From NCBI RefSeq assembly GCF_002305895.1, contig NZ_CP022203.1:3884501-3948500 (forward strand): DNA of 64,000 bases, in the 5' to 3' direction. The DNA is from Corallococcus macrosporus DSM 14697. GTDB lineage: Bacteria; Myxococcota; Myxococcia; Myxococcales; Myxococcaceae. Under the pieces are notes generated by a model that did not search any database, was not told the origin of the DNA, and was given only the letters and a program-made list of their open reading frames with translations. The translations under genes and the position numbers were made by a program. Below are positions 48,446-55,525 of the stretch, piece by piece. Positions within the stretch are counted from its first letter, which is position 1. The number at the start of each line of letters is the position of its first letter.

Positions 48446-49465
48446 ATGTCCCAACCCTCGCGAGCGCCCCGGGCGGAGTCCCGAGCCCTGGGCCCCACGG
48501 AGCCAGGCCCCATGGTCTCCGGCCCCCCTGGTCTGTCACGTCGTCCTCGTCCCCGGCGCATCATCGCGGTGGGAGGCGGGAAGGGCGGCATTGGCAAGTC
48601 CATGGTGTCCGCCAACCTGGGCGTGGCCCTGGCGCAGTCAGGCGCCAACGTGCTGCTGGTGGACGTGGACCTGGGCGGGGCGAACCTGCACACGTGCCTG
48701 GGGGTGGGGCAGCCCAACGCGACGCTGTCCGACTTCCTGCGCCGGAACAAGGCGCAGATTGAAGAGGTCATCATCCCCACCGGCGTGCCCCGGCTGTCGC
48801 TGATCGCCGGCGCGCAGGACGCGCTGGACGCGGCCAACCTCAAGTACGCGCAGAAGCAGAAGCTGCTGCGGACGTTGATGGCCACGTCGGCGGACTACCT
48901 CATCCTGGACCTGGGCGCGGGGACCAGCTTCAACACCATCGACTTCTTCATCCTCGCGGACCACGGCGTGCTGGTGATGCTGCCCGAGCCCACGTCGGTG
49001 GAGAACGCCTACCGCTTCGCCAAGGCGGCCTTCTTCCGCAAGCTCCAGCAGGTGGAGGCGCAGTACGGCATCGAGGACCTGGTGGAGGACGCGCTCACCA
49101 CCCGCGAGGGCGCGCTGCGCACGCTGCATGACGTGCTGGCGCAGGCCCGGCGCAAGGACCCGGCCATCGCGGAGCGCCTGGAGCGGGAGCTGTCCGCGTT
49201 CCGCATCCGCCTCGTCGTGAACCAGGCGCGCACGGACGCGGACCTGTCCGTGGGGACCTCGGTGGCCGCCGCGTGGAAGAAGTTCTTCGGCATCGACATG
49301 GATGTCCTGGGCGCCATTCGCTACGACGACGAGGCGTGGCGCGCGGTGCGCAAGCGCAAGCCCGTCCTCATCGAGCGGCCGGATTCCGCGGCGGCCACTG
49401 CCATTCAGGGCATCGCAACGCGTATCCTCGCGATTGACGGTTCCCCTCAGCGCTCCCCACCATGA
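48446..49465 (+). CDS. MinD/FlhG-like ParA-superfamily ATPase
   Basis: 339 residues. A 35-residue Pro/Arg-rich N-terminus precedes a deviant Walker A motif (GGGKGGIGKSMVSANLG), DVDLGGANLHTCLGV as switch I, and ILDLGAGTSFNTIDFF as Walker B/switch II. The overall pattern is closer to FlhG/FleN (MinD2) than to plasmid ParA. Those proteins cycle between monomer and ATP-bound dimer and set the position or number of surface structures. No amphipathic membrane-targeting helix is obvious at the C-terminus. Overlaps the next gene by ATGA. Confidence 0.88.
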   Translation: MSQPSRAPRAESRALGPTEPGPMVSGPPGLSRRPRPRRIIAVGGGKGGIGKSMVSANLGVALAQSGANVLLVDVDLGGANLHTCLGVGQPNATLSDFLRRNKAQIEEVIIPTGVPRLSLIAGAQDALDAANLKYAQKQKLLRTLMATSADYLILDLGAGTSFNTIDFFILADHGVLVMLPEPTSVENAYRFAKAAFFRKLQQVEAQYGIEDLVEDALTTREGALRTLHDVLAQARRKDPAIAERLERELSAFRIRLVVNQARTDADLSVGTSVAAAWKKFFGIDMDVLGAIRYDDEAWRAVRKRKPVLIERPDSAAATAIQGIATRILAIDGSPQRSPP

Positions 49466-51066
49466 AGCCCTTCGAGCAGCAGACCTACTACGAGATTCTC
49501 GAAGTCCCCGTCACCGCGCCGCTGGAGGAGATCCGCGCGGCGTATGAACGGCTGATGGAGCTGTATTCGCCGGACTCCATCGCCGTGTACGCGCTCGTGG
49601 ACGAGGGCCAGGTGGACGGGCTGCGCGCCCGGATGGCCGAGGCCCTGGAGATCCTCTCCGACGAAGAGCTGCGTGCCGAGTACGACAAGGACCTGGGACT
49701 CCCGGCGCGCCGGTTGATGGACGCGGCGGCGTCGGGTGGCGAGGTGACGCCGGCGGAAAAGCGTGCCGAGCCGGAGCGCGTCGGGGTTGCCGCTACGCAC
49801 GGGGACGAACAGACTGGCCCGCGTTCAACGCAGGTCCCCCAGGCGGGGACGGACGGGAGGCCAGGGGCAGTGCGAGACGTGCCGGTGGAGGACTCGGAGA
49901 CCGCGAGCACGGAGCGGAGCGGAGCGGAGGAGGGCGCCGCCAGGGCGACGGAGCCGCGGGTGGAGCCACTGGCCGCGGTTTCGGGACAGGCGGACTTCCG
50001 GGCCTCGTTCTTCCGGGGGTTCTCGTTCGCGTACGTGTCCAGCTCGTTGCAGGACACGCAGCGGCTGGGCAGCGCGGTGGATGTCCCCGCCGCGGCGATT
50101 CAGCCCCGGCCGGACAGCGGCTCCGCGACGGGCGCGAGCGTCCCGGCTTCGAGTGGGGAGGCCGCCGCGCCGACGACCGCGACGGTGGCCACCGTCAGCG
50201 CCCCGGCTCCGGTCAGCGAACCCGCTGCGGCGCCTGTTGCCGCGGTCTCGACGACGGCCACCCTCGTTTCGGCCACGGAGGCCCCGGCGGCGCCTGCTGC
50301 CGCGGCCTCCGCCGCTGCACCGGCAGCCCCCGTCAGCGCTCCGGCTCTGGGGGAGGAGGCCCTGGTGAATGACTCGGTCGCTCCGGCCACTGACACCCCG
50401 CCCGCGCAGGGCGCTCCGGTGGGCGTCGCGCCGGCTCCCTCGCCCTCGGCGCCTGCCACCGGGGCGACCCCGGCGCAGGATGCCCCGGTCAGCGTCGCTT
50501 CAGGTCCATCCACCTCGGCCCCTGACGCCGCGCCCGTGGCCCCTCCGGCTCCGGTCGCGACTGTCACGCCACCGGCTCCAGCGAGCGCCAGTCCGGCGCC
50601 CGGCCCCGACTCCACGGCCATCGTCCCGGTCAGCCCCACGTCCACCCAGGCCGAGCAGGGCAGGCCGGTGTCGCGTCCCGGACGCCTGGGGGACGCGCCG
50701 CAGATTGCCCAGGACTCGGCCATCGCCACGGCGGAGGCGGCGCTGGCGCAGGTGTCCCAGGCCGCGTCCCGCGCCCGTGAGCCCCGGCCTCGCATTCCGG
50801 ACATCCCGTCCGACGCCGAGTTCAATGGCGAGCTGCTCCGCCAGGTCCGCGAGGCCCGGGGGATGACCCTCCAGCAGGTCGCCGACCGCACCCGCATCTC
50901 TCGCGGGCACCTGGAGAACGTGGAGGCGGACCGCTACAACGCGCTCCCGGCGGCGGTCTACCTGCGAGGTATCCTGATGAACCTGGCCCGCGAGCTGGGG
51001 CTGGACCCGCTCCGCGTCTCCAAGAGCTACCTCGCCCTGTCTTCCGAGAAGTCAGGCAAGAAGTAG
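49462..51066 (+). CDS. J-like domain and RodZ-type HTH fusion with a disordered Ala/Pro linker
   Basis: 534 residues. Residues 1-80 resemble a J domain (TYYEILEVPVTAPLEEIRAA ... LSDEELRAEYDKDLGLP), but the HPD motif reads SPD, so DnaK stimulation is unlikely. Residues 95-440 are Ala/Pro/Thr/Val-rich and probably disordered, with a 23-residue imperfect tandem repeat (DNA near 50404 and 50473). Residues 450-525 form an HTH of the RodZ cytoplasmic type (LLRQVREARGMTLQQVADRT, then GHLENVEADRYNALP). There is no membrane helix. Translationally coupled to the MinD-like ATPase. An adaptor role is an inference. Confidence 0.85.
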   Translation: MKPFEQQTYYEILEVPVTAPLEEIRAAYERLMELYSPDSIAVYALVDEGQVDGLRARMAEALEILSDEELRAEYDKDLGLPARRLMDAAASGGEVTPAEKRAEPERVGVAATHGDEQTGPRSTQVPQAGTDGRPGAVRDVPVEDSETASTERSGAEEGAARATEPRVEPLAAVSGQADFRASFFRGFSFAYVSSSLQDTQRLGSAVDVPAAAIQPRPDSGSATGASVPASSGEAAAPTTATVATVSAPAPVSEPAAAPVAAVSTTATLVSATEAPAAPAAAASAAAPAAPVSAPALGEEALVNDSVAPATDTPPAQGAPVGVAPAPSPSAPATGATPAQDAPVSVASGPSTSAPDAAPVAPPAPVATVTPPAPASASPAPGPDSTAIVPVSPTSTQAEQGRPVSRPGRLGDAPQIAQDSAIATAEAALAQVSQAASRAREPRPRIPDIPSDAEFNGELLRQVREARGMTLQQVADRTRISRGHLENVEADRYNALPAAVYLRGILMNLARELGLDPLRVSKSYLALSSEKSGKK

Positions 51067-51425: not shown

Positions 51426-52451
51426 GTGGTAGCGCCCGACACGCGAGAGCACCGCGCTCCGCCCGAAGCCCGAGGCGAGCGCGTGGACCAGTATCTCGCG
51501 CGGGCCTTCCCGGACCTCACGCGCTCCCGCATCCATGGCCTCATCGAGGCCGGGCATGTGCTCGCGGATGGCCAGCCCGCCAAGCCGGCGCGGCGCCTCC
51601 GCGGCGGAGAGCTCCTCGTCCTCCACGTCCCCGCGCCCGTGCCCGCCGTCCCCGTGGCGGAGGAGCTGCCGCTGGCGCTGCTGCACGAGGACCGCGACCT
51701 CGTCGTCGTCGACAAGGCGGCTGGCATGGTCGTCCACCCGGGCGCCGGCCACGCCTCTGGCACCCTGGTCAACGCGCTGCTGCACCGGGTGAAGGACCTG
51801 GCCGGCGTGGGCGGCGAGCTGCGGCCCGGCATCGTCCACCGGCTCGACAAGGACACCACGGGCTGCCTCGTGGTGGCCAAGAATGAGCAGACGCTGGTCG
51901 CGCTCCAGAAGGCCTTCAAGACGCGCGCGGTGGCGAAGACGTACCTGGCCCTGGTGCACGGCGTGCCGCCGGCGGAGGGCCGCATTGAAACGCTCTACGG
52001 CCGTCACCCCGTCCACCGTCAGCGCTTCACGGGCAAGGTGAAGGAGGGCAAGAGCGCCATCACCGTGTACCGCGTCCTCGAGGCCTTCGACGGCGCCGCG
52101 CTGGTGGAGGTGGACCTGCTCACCGGCCGCACGCACCAGATTCGCGTGCACCTGTCCGAGGCCGGCCACCCCCTGCTGGGTGACGCGCTCTACGGCGCCG
52201 GGCGCAAGGCGAAGGGCGCCGCGGCGGAGGCCCAGGAGCGGCTGGGCCGTCAGGCGCTCCACGCGTGGCGCCTGTCCTTCGCGCACCCGCGCACCCACAA
52301 GGTGCTGAAGCTGGAGGCGCCCGTGCCCGCGGACCTGGAGGCGGCCCTGACGCTGCTCCGGGCCACGCTCCCCGCGCCGGCCGCGCCGCCAGGGAAGCCC
52401 GCGCCCCGGAAGGCGGCGGGCGCCAGGCGGACTACAGGCCGGACACGCTGA
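51426..52451 (+). CDS. rluD: 23S rRNA pseudouridine synthase, RluD family
   Basis: 341 residues from GTG 51426. An N-terminal S4-like RNA-binding domain (RVDQYLARAFPDLTRSRIHG) precedes the catalytic domain with the Asp-containing motif HRLDKDTTGCL and TGRTHQIRVHL. RluD makes pseudouridines in helix 69 of 23S rRNA; RluA or RluC specificity cannot be excluded. The last 30 residues are Pro/Ala/Arg-rich. Its 3' end overlaps the convergent HD-GYP-like gene by 20 bp. Confidence 0.92.
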   Translation: MVAPDTREHRAPPEARGERVDQYLARAFPDLTRSRIHGLIEAGHVLADGQPAKPARRLRGGELLVLHVPAPVPAVPVAEELPLALLHEDRDLVVVDKAAGMVVHPGAGHASGTLVNALLHRVKDLAGVGGELRPGIVHRLDKDTTGCLVVAKNEQTLVALQKAFKTRAVAKTYLALVHGVPPAEGRIETLYGRHPVHRQRFTGKVKEGKSAITVYRVLEAFDGAALVEVDLLTGRTHQIRVHLSEAGHPLLGDALYGAGRKAKGAAAEAQERLGRQALHAWRLSFAHPRTHKVLKLEAPVPADLEAALTLLRATLPAPAAPPGKPAPRKAAGARRTTGRTR

Positions 52452-53742
52452 GCGACTGCTGCCGCTTGGACAGCACCTTCACGGGCTGGATGGCCATGAC
52501 CCGCATGAAGACGGACAGCAGCTCCGGGTCGAACTTGTTCCGCATCTCCGACCACATCAGCATCAGCGCCACCTCCGGGCCGTAGGCGTCCCGGTACGGG
52601 CGCTTGGACGTGAGGGCGTCGTACGCGTCGCAGATGGCGATGATCTTCGCGTACACCCCGAGGTTCGTCTTCGGGATGATCATCTGGATGTTGCCGCGCG
52701 AGTCGCGCACGGCGGTCCCGAAGTCCGTCTTGTGCTCGAACGTCGTGACCACGCGCAGCAGCGTGGAGCGGCTGAAGCCCTTCTCCATCAGGATGTTGCG
52801 CACGGAGATGAGCGGCGCGCGCTGCACCGTCTGCTTCTCCTCGGGCGTCAGGGCGCCGCGCTTGGTGGACAGCTCCTCCGACAGCGTGGCCATGCCGGCG
52901 TCGTGGAAGAGGGCGATGTAGCCCAAGTCCCGAAGCTGCGGCTTCGTCAGCCCCAGCTCCGCGCCGAACACGACGCTCATCAGGCACACGTTGACCTGGT
53001 GGTACACGAGGTAGTCGTCCTCGCGCCGCATGGTCGTCATGCCCAGGAAGTGCGTCCGCTGCTCGTAGGAGATGTCGACGAAGTCCTGCACCAGGCGCAG
53101 CGCCTTGGAGGCGTTGATGGGCTTCCCGGCCCGCACCGACTCCAGGTACTTGGTGAGGAAGAACACCGCGCGCGCGTAGATGGTCATCGCGTACTTCTTG
53201 CGGTCCACCTTCTGGTCGCCCGGGTTGTCCAGGTCCTTGTTCAGCTTCTCCTTCAGCTTGGAGAACTTGGCCACCCGCATGTTGAGCAGCTTGCGGTTGG
53301 ACAGGCCGTCCTCTTCGGACGCCGTCGTCTGCTCCTTGCTGAAGATCCAGATGAAGTTCTTCAGCTCCGGCACGGTGACGGGCTTGGTGAGCGTGAAGCC
53401 CCCCACGTCCTTCGCGCGCAGCTCCGCCAGCAGGTAGCGCTGGTTCTCGATGGAGTTGAGGTCCACCTTCACCAGCATGCCGTTCAGGTAGAAGGACTCC
53501 TTGACGCCCGTGAGCTCCAGGCGGCCTTCCTTGCCGATGATTTGATTGATGATGTCCTGGAGCTGGTGCAGCGGCTTCTGGAAGACGGCGTTCTCCGGGT
53601 CATACATCTTCACCGAGCGCACCAGCATGTAGAGGCCGGCCACCAGCGAGCGCGCCAGGCCCTGGAGCTTCTCGTTGTGCTCGCGGCCGAACTCGCTGGT
53701 GCTCTCGTCCTGCGACTGGGTGATTTTCAGGTTGTCGGCCAT
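52432..53742 (-). CDS. Degenerate HD-GYP-type protein with an N-terminal domain shared with its neighbour
   Basis: 436 residues. The N-terminal part (about 30-135) contains VRSVKMYDPENAVFQKPLHQ and SFYLNGMLVKV and resembles the N-terminus of the adjacent HEAT protein. The C-terminal half is an HD-GYP-like domain: HDAGM, CDAYDALTSKRPYRDA. Key residues are altered: Met for Lys after HD, RAP where a His-Pro is usual, FEHKTDFG instead of HHE..DGsGYP. Cyclic-di-GMP hydrolysis is therefore doubtful; binding or scaffolding is possible. It starts 4 bp after the HEAT gene. Confidence 0.85.
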   Translation of the reverse strand: MADNLKITQSQDESTSEFGREHNEKLQGLARSLVAGLYMLVRSVKMYDPENAVFQKPLHQLQDIINQIIGKEGRLELTGVKESFYLNGMLVKVDLNSIENQRYLLAELRAKDVGGFTLTKPVTVPELKNFIWIFSKEQTTASEEDGLSNRKLLNMRVAKFSKLKEKLNKDLDNPGDQKVDRKKYAMTIYARAVFFLTKYLESVRAGKPINASKALRLVQDFVDISYEQRTHFLGMTTMRREDDYLVYHQVNVCLMSVVFGAELGLTKPQLRDLGYIALFHDAGMATLSEELSTKRGALTPEEKQTVQRAPLISVRNILMEKGFSRSTLLRVVTTFEHKTDFGTAVRDSRGNIQMIIPKTNLGVYAKIIAICDAYDALTSKRPYRDAYGPEVALMLMWSEMRNKFDPELLSVFMRVMAIQPVKVLSKRQQSLSVSGL

Positions 53743-53746
53743 GCGC

Positions 53747-55525
53747 CTATGCCTCCTCCGCCAGCGCCGAGTCGCCGAAGAGCGCCTTCTTCGTCTGGTA
53801 CATCGCCTTGCGGGCCGAGGTGAGGACCTCCAGGGGCTGGCTCTTGTCCTCCACCACCGCCTGCAACATCTTGTAGCCCTGGATGGAGCACGCGCCGCCC
53901 AGGCCGTGGATGGCCAGCAGCTTGTCCTCCAGCACCCGCTTCTTGTTGAGCAGCGAGGGCTTCACGGCGAGCATCTGCTGCATCATCGACAGGGCGCCCG
54001 GGGTGCCGGTGGAGCCGATGGCCGCGTACACCGCGGCGCGCTCGTCCGGCGTCTTCTTCTCGAAGCCCGGCTCCCTCACCAGCCGCATCAGGTCCACGTA
54101 GCCCTTGTCGCGGTCGAACTCCGGCAGCAGCTTCGCCGCCAGCATCCGCACCTGGGAGATGGGGTCCGCCAGCGCGTCCACGATGATGCGCCGGGCGTCC
54201 CCCGTCCGGCCGCGGCCGATGATGTTGAGGACCTCCAGCTTCACGACCAGGTTGGGGCTCTTCAGCACCTGGCCGAACATCTTCACCCGGTCCGGGTGGT
54301 TGCTCTTCTCCAAGATGTGGACCATGTCGCGCACTGTCTGCGGCCGCTCTGACATCAGCCGGGACACGAAGGGCTCGGGCAGCTCACGCGCGAACCCGGC
54401 GAGCGCGTCACACAGCAGGGTGCGGTTGTCGGCGACCTCGATGGTCTCCAGCACCGACAGCAGGGGGATGATGGAGTCCCGGCCCAGCACCTGGAGGTAG
54501 CGGGACACGTCCGCGGGGTTCTTCGGGCGCGTCGACTTGAGCGACTCGCCCACGCGCATCAGGCGCTGCTCCTCGCCCATCTTGTGGAGGAAGTTCTCCA
54601 GCATCTTCGCCAGGTCCTCGTTGCCCTCGCGCTGGGAGAGCGCGCGCAGCTTGAGGACAATCTGGTTCACCGTGCCGAAGTCGTCCTGGAGGAGGAGCAT
54701 GTCCAGGAGCTGCACGAAGATTTCTTCCAGCAGCGACGCGTCATCCACGCCGCCTTCCACCACCTGGAACACGGCGCTCACCAGCTTGGGGAACAGCCGG
54801 GCGTTCTCCTCCTCGGAGACCTCGCGCTGGAGCTTCGCCTTCAGCTCGTCCGAGGCGTGCCGCCCGCCCACCACGAGGCCGCGGATCTGCTCCACGCCGT
54901 CCAGCCTGGCGTCCAGGTCCTCCGCGGACACGCGCGCGAAGCGCAGGTAGTCCTCCGAGTTCGTCTGCAGGCGCGAGTAGAGGTAGCCGACCACCTTGTC
55001 GACCTCCACCTGCACCTCCTCCTCGGAGGCGTTCTCCATGGAGAAGCCCTCCACCACCACGTACTCGACGTGCTCCATGCTCGCGCGCCAGAGCTGCGCC
55101 AGCACGTCCTCCGCGCCGCGCTCCGGCTCCGACAGGGCGATGAGCGTGAAGGTGGTGAGCTCCTCCACCGTGAGCCCCGGCCGGAAGATGAGCTGACGGA
55201 TGCCGTCGCGGAAGAACTTGTAGGGCAGCGGCGTGTCTTCGGAGAACAGCGACTCGCCGAGGAGCAGGAAGTTCTGCTGCTCCACCTTCATGGACAGCGG
55301 ACCGAACTTGTCGGTGTAGGCGGAGATCGACTCGAGCGCCTTCCCCAGGAACTCCGGGAAGCGCGACTCGTTGTGACGATACATGCCAATCTGCTTGATG
55401 CCCTTGAGCAGGTGGAAGGCGAACGTCTTCGCCAACTCGACCTTCTCGCGAGCCTCGGGCGAAAGCTGCGGCTCCGCGTTGGATTCCTGGATGGCTTTAG
55501 GGGGGTGGGCCATGCTGTCACTCAA
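53747..55525 (-). CDS. HEAT-repeat protein sharing an N-terminal domain with the HD-GYP-like protein
   Basis: 592 residues, soluble. The N-terminal domain (about 32-130) has IKQIGMYRHNESRFPEFLGK and NFLLLGESLF followed by GLTVEELTTF, aligning with residues 32-132 of the downstream gene. From about 330 on it is a series of HEAT repeats (for example SNHPDRVKMFGQVLKSPNLV and DPISQVRMLAAKLLPEFD). Directly upstream of the HD-GYP-like gene with a 4-bp gap, so the two are co-translated. No enzymatic motif. Possibly a signalling scaffold. Confidence 0.85.
   Translation of the reverse strand: MSDSMAHPPKAIQESNAEPQLSPEAREKVELAKTFAFHLLKGIKQIGMYRHNESRFPEFLGKALESISAYTDKFGPLSMKVEQQNFLLLGESLFSEDTPLPYKFFRDGIRQLIFRPGLTVEELTTFTLIALSEPERGAEDVLAQLWRASMEHVEYVVVEGFSMENASEEEVQVEVDKVVGYLYSRLQTNSEDYLRFARVSAEDLDARLDGVEQIRGLVVGGRHASDELKAKLQREVSEEENARLFPKLVSAVFQVVEGGVDDASLLEEIFVQLLDMLLLQDDFGTVNQIVLKLRALSQREGNEDLAKMLENFLHKMGEEQRLMRVGESLKSTRPKNPADVSRYLQVLGRDSIIPLLSVLETIEVADNRTLLCDALAGFARELPEPFVSRLMSERPQTVRDMVHILEKSNHPDRVKMFGQVLKSPNLVVKLEVLNIIGRGRTGDARRIIVDALADPISQVRMLAAKLLPEFDRDKGYVDLMRLVREPGFEKKTPDERAAVYAAIGSTGTPGALSMMQQMLAVKPSLLNKKRVLEDKLLAIHGLGGACSIQGYKMLQAVVEDKSQPLEVLTSARKAMYQTKKALFGDSALAEEA

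Follow-up and report, generated by a model that had tools for sequence, protein, structure and literature searches.

An N-terminal domain shared by adjacent HEAT-repeat and HD-GYP-like proteins of Myxococcota and a candidate two-subunit complex

In the 64,000-nucleotide stretch of Corallococcus macrosporus DSM 14697 analyzed here (the window; host genome 8.97 Mb, Myxococcus-type), two adjacent genes encode a HEAT-repeat protein and an HD-GYP-like protein whose N-termini are homologous and belong to one domain family. On balance we favor the reading that the two genes encode the subunits of a single complex, in which a HEAT scaffold and a pseudo-phosphodiesterase are joined as a heterodimer through these N-domains; the heterodimerization itself is what we infer from the sequences.

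Both genes lie on the minus strand, with the HEAT gene (53747..55513, 588 aa; HEAT_2 by Pfam, E=1.1e-6; homologues at all related loci) upstream of the HD gene (52432..53742, 436 aa; HD_5 by Pfam, E=2.3e-14). An earlier reading made from the letters alone, hereafter the sequence-only reading, had described the genes as coupled by a 4-bp gap, and TAG-GCGC-ATG can indeed be read directly: the intergenic GCGC (53743..53746, minus strand) lies between the HEAT stop codon TAG (53749-53747) and the ATG of the HD gene (53742). Inside the 3′ end of the HEAT gene, GGAGGAGG (53752..53759, minus strand) reads as a probable ribosome-binding site for the HD gene. The HEAT gene had previously been extended to 55525, where an in-frame TTG does offer an alternative start four codons before the ATG at 55513, but the latter is the likelier start and probably gives the 588-aa protein.

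For profile building, homologues came from three sources: a diverse sample of 40 Myxococcota genomes, 79 loci belonging to named genomes, and some 30 paralogous loci of greater divergence. With enlarged profiles of 67 and 72 sequences, none common to both sets, hhalign aligned HD residues 23-140 to HEAT residues 21-132 with a score of 57.4 (P=1.9e-9, probability 96.3%); by comparison, 100 column shuffles reached a maximum of 22.1 and the reversed profile 11.5. Divergent copies were needed for this result, as significance grew with profile diversity from P=0.043 (a less diverse set, close relatives only) through P=1.6e-4 (an earlier, more diverse set) to the final value. Searching 4913 ORFs at i-E<10, an HMM of the HEAT N-domain matched 144 HD proteins and 5 unrelated ORFs, and the reciprocal HMM of the HD N-domain matched 33 HEAT proteins and 3 unrelated ORFs. 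Chance similarity or shared composition could appeal to the least diverse profiles and to BLASTP of the HEAT protein against the HD protein, which found nothing significant (collinear alignment of 12 bits, E=63). Scores far above those of the shuffles, cross-matches outranking nearly all of the 4913 ORFs, and the same order of structural elements in two separate models refute this explanation at the sequence level, and we give it almost no credence. The shared domain proposed by the sequence-only reading therefore stands on profile-profile similarity, reciprocal HMM matches, and matching predicted topology. In a tree of N-domains, the HEAT and HD sets formed the two sides of one branch (SH-aLRT 100), which places a single duplication before all duplications of the module.

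The domain is alpha/beta and approximately 140 aa long. Hhalign, the models, and a joint alignment place it at residues 20-160 of the HD protein (53263..53685, minus strand), with AlphaFold2 elements in the order helix-helix-strand-strand-helix-strand-helix-strand (H14-44, H52-72, E75-80, E83-86, H95-110, E113-118, H124-132, and E155-159), and at residues 18-158 of the HEAT protein (55040..55462, minus strand), in the order helix-helix-strand-strand-helix-strand-helix-helix-strand (H19-44, H49-70, E73-77, E82-84, H96-102, E105-110, H116-127, H137-144, and E149-153; pLDDT mostly at least 90 up to residue 130). This order agrees between the two independently predicted structures, and because matching elements continue to the last strands (E155-159 and E149-153), the domain reaches approximately residue 160 in both proteins. 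The limits first proposed, 32-132 (HD) and 32-130 (HEAT), thus captured a real resemblance but stopped short of the domain's end. Among the motifs described at that time, G-x-L-x-hydrophobic, F-x-L-x-G, and TV-x-EL-x-x-F were correct, while Lys-x-MY was inexact (VKMYDPEN in the HD protein, IGMYRHNE in the HEAT protein), and the following Asn is shifted by one position between the two window proteins, even though it occupies Tyr+4 in divergent members of both proteins. In the joint alignment, divergent members have a (Y/H)-x-P-x-N element in common; G-x-L strands are also visible, as is R-x-L-x-F with EL-x-x-F after it.

Scans of 59 members against Pfam and NCBIfam placed no curated family over the N-domain, giving isolated single-member matches only, and a PDB sequence search returned no match covering it. 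The weak matches, S3 and cytochrome among them, were isolated and judged to be chance. Fold searches with the whole HEAT and HD models returned the HD and HEAT parts only, since those parts dominated. The shared N-domain thus appears, from these searches, to be an undescribed family absent from both Pfam and NCBIfam.

Beyond the N-domain, the HEAT protein continues through a low-confidence linker (residues 181-220 of the model) into a regular superhelix of paired helices at residues 222-588 (53750..54850, minus strand). This predicted superhelix, together with a HEAT_2 match above cut-off, upholds the earlier description of a HEAT arm. Foldseek and VIA matched residues 231-588 to HEAT and alphaRep proteins, generic HEAT/ARM scaffolds; the right-handed helical repeats are those of known scaffolds (HEAT_2, alphaRep, PP2A-A, and importins), a likeness of common repeat architecture that identifies no specific family, and the window protein differs from them by its additional N-domain.

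Residues 178-420 of the HD protein (52483..53211, minus strand) have the HD-GYP fold, common to the c-di-GMP phosphodiesterases of this type (PmGH 4mcw, PA4781 4r8z, DvhD 9rbz, and RpfG; HD_5). In VIA comparisons of model residues 178-417, the best structural match was Bd1817 of Bdellovibrio, an unconventional HD-GYP protein (3tmb_B; Z 21.3, rmsd 2.9, 213 residues), and active PmGH (4mcw_B) scored Z 16.4, with an HMM E-value of 1e-23 to 4mcw. Bd1817 is catalytically inactive and its regulatory role is unknown (PMC4159591); it binds two irons and departs from the conventional site mainly at the GYP tyrosine, whereas several metal ligands are changed in the window protein. Unlike HD-GYP phosphodiesterases, the window protein carries an N-domain that is not a GAF, PAS, or receiver input and has an obligate HEAT partner.

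Mapping the PmGH ligands by HMM alignment, we found that H248, H280, D281, H337, D372, D375, R381, and R384 are retained, equivalent in that order to PmGH H189, H221, D222, H276, D305, D308, R314, and K317 (the last as Arg), so that the HD motif itself (H280/D281) is intact. In contrast to this part of the site, which is kept as in HD-GYP phosphodiesterases, the metal ligands H250 and H277 are replaced by A309 and K338, the catalytic lysine K225 (HDxGK) by M284, and E185 by Y244, and the HHExxDGxGYP motif is replaced by EHKTDFGTAVRD, with no GYP. Activity of PmGH is essentially abolished when H250, H277, or K225 is mutated to alanine (PMC4159591), and with these residues and GYP lost, the HD arm of the window clade is probably not a c-di-GMP phosphodiesterase; the window protein would probably be a pseudo-phosphodiesterase. 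The HD-GYP-like output arm of the sequence-only reading was accordingly right as to fold, but residues required for c-di-GMP hydrolysis are gone from the window clade. Since H248, R381, and R384 are still conserved, ligand binding may persist.

In a tree of HD domains built without the ligand columns, the window protein fell within a 28-member degenerate clade (SH-aLRT 99), and the earliest branches (L070, L159, L160, L169, and L170) retain a complete metal site and HHxxxDxxGYP, as do the known phosphodiesterases. The simplest history is that an active HD-GYP protein became a pseudoenzyme while its HEAT partner was retained.

Focusing on distribution, which we surveyed within Myxococcota, profile matches to the domain were present in 143 of the 193 genomes sampled, and the number of copies was even in 124 of those 143. 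One scan of a genome collection gave loci of Myxococcota type, although the domain may also occur outside this phylum; a search of plasmids found no copies. The sequence-only reading had suggested a genome-wide search for further copies, and with a joint profile the window genome proved to contain exactly two, namely the pair itself. At every locus holding both genes (166/166), the HEAT gene is directly upstream of the HD gene on the same strand; the count by script was 165, the flagged locus (L170) having an ORF over-extended upstream. Spacing is mostly 3-4 bp (median 3-4), and other lineages have overlaps of 4 or 8 bp. Non-redundant HEAT-HD pairs number fewer than 100. Among 50 diverse loci, 49 contained the pair, the flanking genes varied such that none recurred in more than 8, and no conserved third gene was found beside it; three candidates for such a gene (clusters 2, 3, and 8) turned out to be antisense or shadow ORFs that overlap the HEAT and HD genes themselves. 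The HEAT-HD pair is thus an old two-gene module of Myxococcota.

These modules duplicate as cognate pairs, with HD and HEAT subclades mirroring each other in the N-domain tree. In genomes with several modules, no arrangement among 6144 swaps of partners within genomes gave a higher distance correlation than the true partners (r=0.825 versus a mean of 0.537), a result that is not independent proof of contact because physical linkage contributes to it; much of the cognate co-duplication signal would arise from linkage alone.

Individual loci showed a number of peculiarities. Several other Myxococcus species have a second, divergent HEAT-HD module (L230:3956-7089) that the window genome lacks. 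In UBA5297 (L172:3988-8341 and L150), the HD protein of the second module is split over two frames into an N-domain ORF and an HD ORF; this copy is frameshifted or in decay. At L238:3918-4385, a 155-aa ORF carries part of a HEAT-type N-domain; it had no detected partner and is possibly a module remnant. The pair is also present in a record titled 'Comamonas sp. KCTC 72670' (L078, BNCN01000021.1), with an HD protein 97% identical to that of the window; this record is probably mislabeled or contaminated.

The strongest evidence that the two parts work in one assembly came from natural fusions. Upon inspection, each of three genomes with odd copy numbers that we opened had a Ser/Thr kinase, HEAT, and HD fused in one reading frame, arranged as kinase-linker-HEAT-N-HD in L227 (1034-4942, 1302 aa) and L226 (3292-7098, 1268 aa), and in reversed order as kinase-N-HD-HEAT in L225 (3217-6510, 1097 aa). 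Relatives of the kinase-HEAT-N-HD type in L240, L241, L242, L243, and L247 indicate that the L226 and L227 fusions are not assembly errors, and bring the kinase fusions to at least 8 genomes. Each fusion retains a single recognizable N-domain, which suggests that this domain serves to keep the HEAT and HD halves joined. Linked across the phylum and sometimes fused with a kinase, the pair probably forms one signaling complex, and the joint function earlier proposed for the two proteins gains support from both observations; the fusions also hint that, in some lineages, these complexes belong to Ser/Thr-kinase signaling.

In the mechanism that we propose, an ancestral homodimer would have been split by duplication into a HEAT-N/HD-N heterodimer, and translational coupling would supply the two proteins in equal amounts. 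The N-domain heterodimer would then hold a client-binding HEAT superhelix beside the HD-GYP-derived domain, which in early-branching copies still resembles a metal-dependent cyclic-dinucleotide phosphodiesterase. In the window clade, the HD domain is instead probably a regulatory pseudo-phosphodiesterase, acting as a conformational switch or as a nucleotide or protein binder that controls the cargo of the HEAT arm.

Several other arrangements have to be weighed against this complex. HD-GYP domains and HEAT repeats are both capable of dimerizing or binding partners on their own, which counts against a need for N-domain heterodimerization. Each N-domain might also dock on one common third protein or site, where the arms would meet without binding one another directly; domains of common descent frequently share a binding partner, and the kinases fused to both arms could substitute for it. 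We nevertheless regard such docking as rather unlikely, as no third gene is conserved beside the pair and one N-domain per fusion is easier to understand if the N-domains normally pair together. The cognate-pair copies, the one ancient duplication, and the one-N-domain fusions fit mutual binding of the N-domains at least as well as a third partner. Less probable again is mere co-regulation, in which each protein would homodimerize through its N-domain and serve the same process with no complex between them: two homologous domains could each do so, and proteins of one pathway, too, can be encoded in tight operons, but linkage has survived many duplications while neighbors changed, and even copy numbers and several natural fusions speak for a closer association.

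The remaining alternative concerns the HD arm, which could still be catalytic: a phosphohydrolase with a different substrate and a reduced metal site (H248, H280, D281, and D372), the substrate being presented by the HEAT protein. Many phosphohydrolases of the HD superfamily work with a single metal held by similar ligands. Over 131 homologues, H248 is found in nearly all members and the HD motif in approximately 90%, and both arginines are conserved; yet at the position of the fourth ligand, D372, 27 of the 131 have Ala and further members have other residues, and H280 or D281 is missing from several. With the equivalents of the three PmGH residues sensitive to alanine also gone, we judge residual catalysis to be unlikely, only a little less so than co-regulation.

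A broader interpretation goes beyond the complex favored here, and we put it forward tentatively as a possibility rather than an expectation: the undescribed domain family may form heterodimers that are obligate and join a HEAT scaffold to an HD-GYP domain across Myxococcota, the HD arm having passed from cyclic-dinucleotide phosphodiesterase to pseudoenzyme receptor with the pairing retained, and may be wired, sometimes covalently, to Ser/Thr kinases as an undescribed kind of second-messenger/kinase integration complex. For 143 of the 193 sampled genomes, separate 'HEAT' and 'HD domain' annotations become one testable complex. The natural range of forms, from HD-GYP proteins whose site is intact to pseudoenzymes that keep their partner, should be useful for understanding HD-GYP roles beyond hydrolysis, and the Ser/Thr-kinase signaling hinted at by the fusions is very abundant in myxobacteria.

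Our literature search on HEAT and HD-GYP proteins in Myxococcus found no report of the pair. HD-GYP proteins have been counted together in c-di-GMP studies of M. xanthus (PMC4877007, PMC8844925). PmxA (MXAN_2061) shares superfamily and genus with the window HD protein; unlike it, PmxA is a membrane protein of Cache-HAMP type whose HD...GYP site is intact, and it has no reported HEAT partner. Six loci of the window genome score above cut-off for HD_5, a total equal to the M. xanthus count of HD-GYP proteins (six; PMC8844925), and from this count an orthologue is probably among the published deletion mutants, of which only those of the enzymatically active DmxA, DmxB, and PmxA were important under standard conditions (PMC4877007, PMC8844925). 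If the orthologue is one of the six, its single deletion caused no reported defect in growth, motility, or development, which would count against the complex reading.

Elsewhere in the window, a 534-aa protein (49462-51066) combines an N-terminal DnaJ domain with a C-terminal RodZ-type HTH_25 across a long Ala/Pro-rich linker, and its gene is directly preceded by that of a ParA/MinD-type ATPase (48446-49465).
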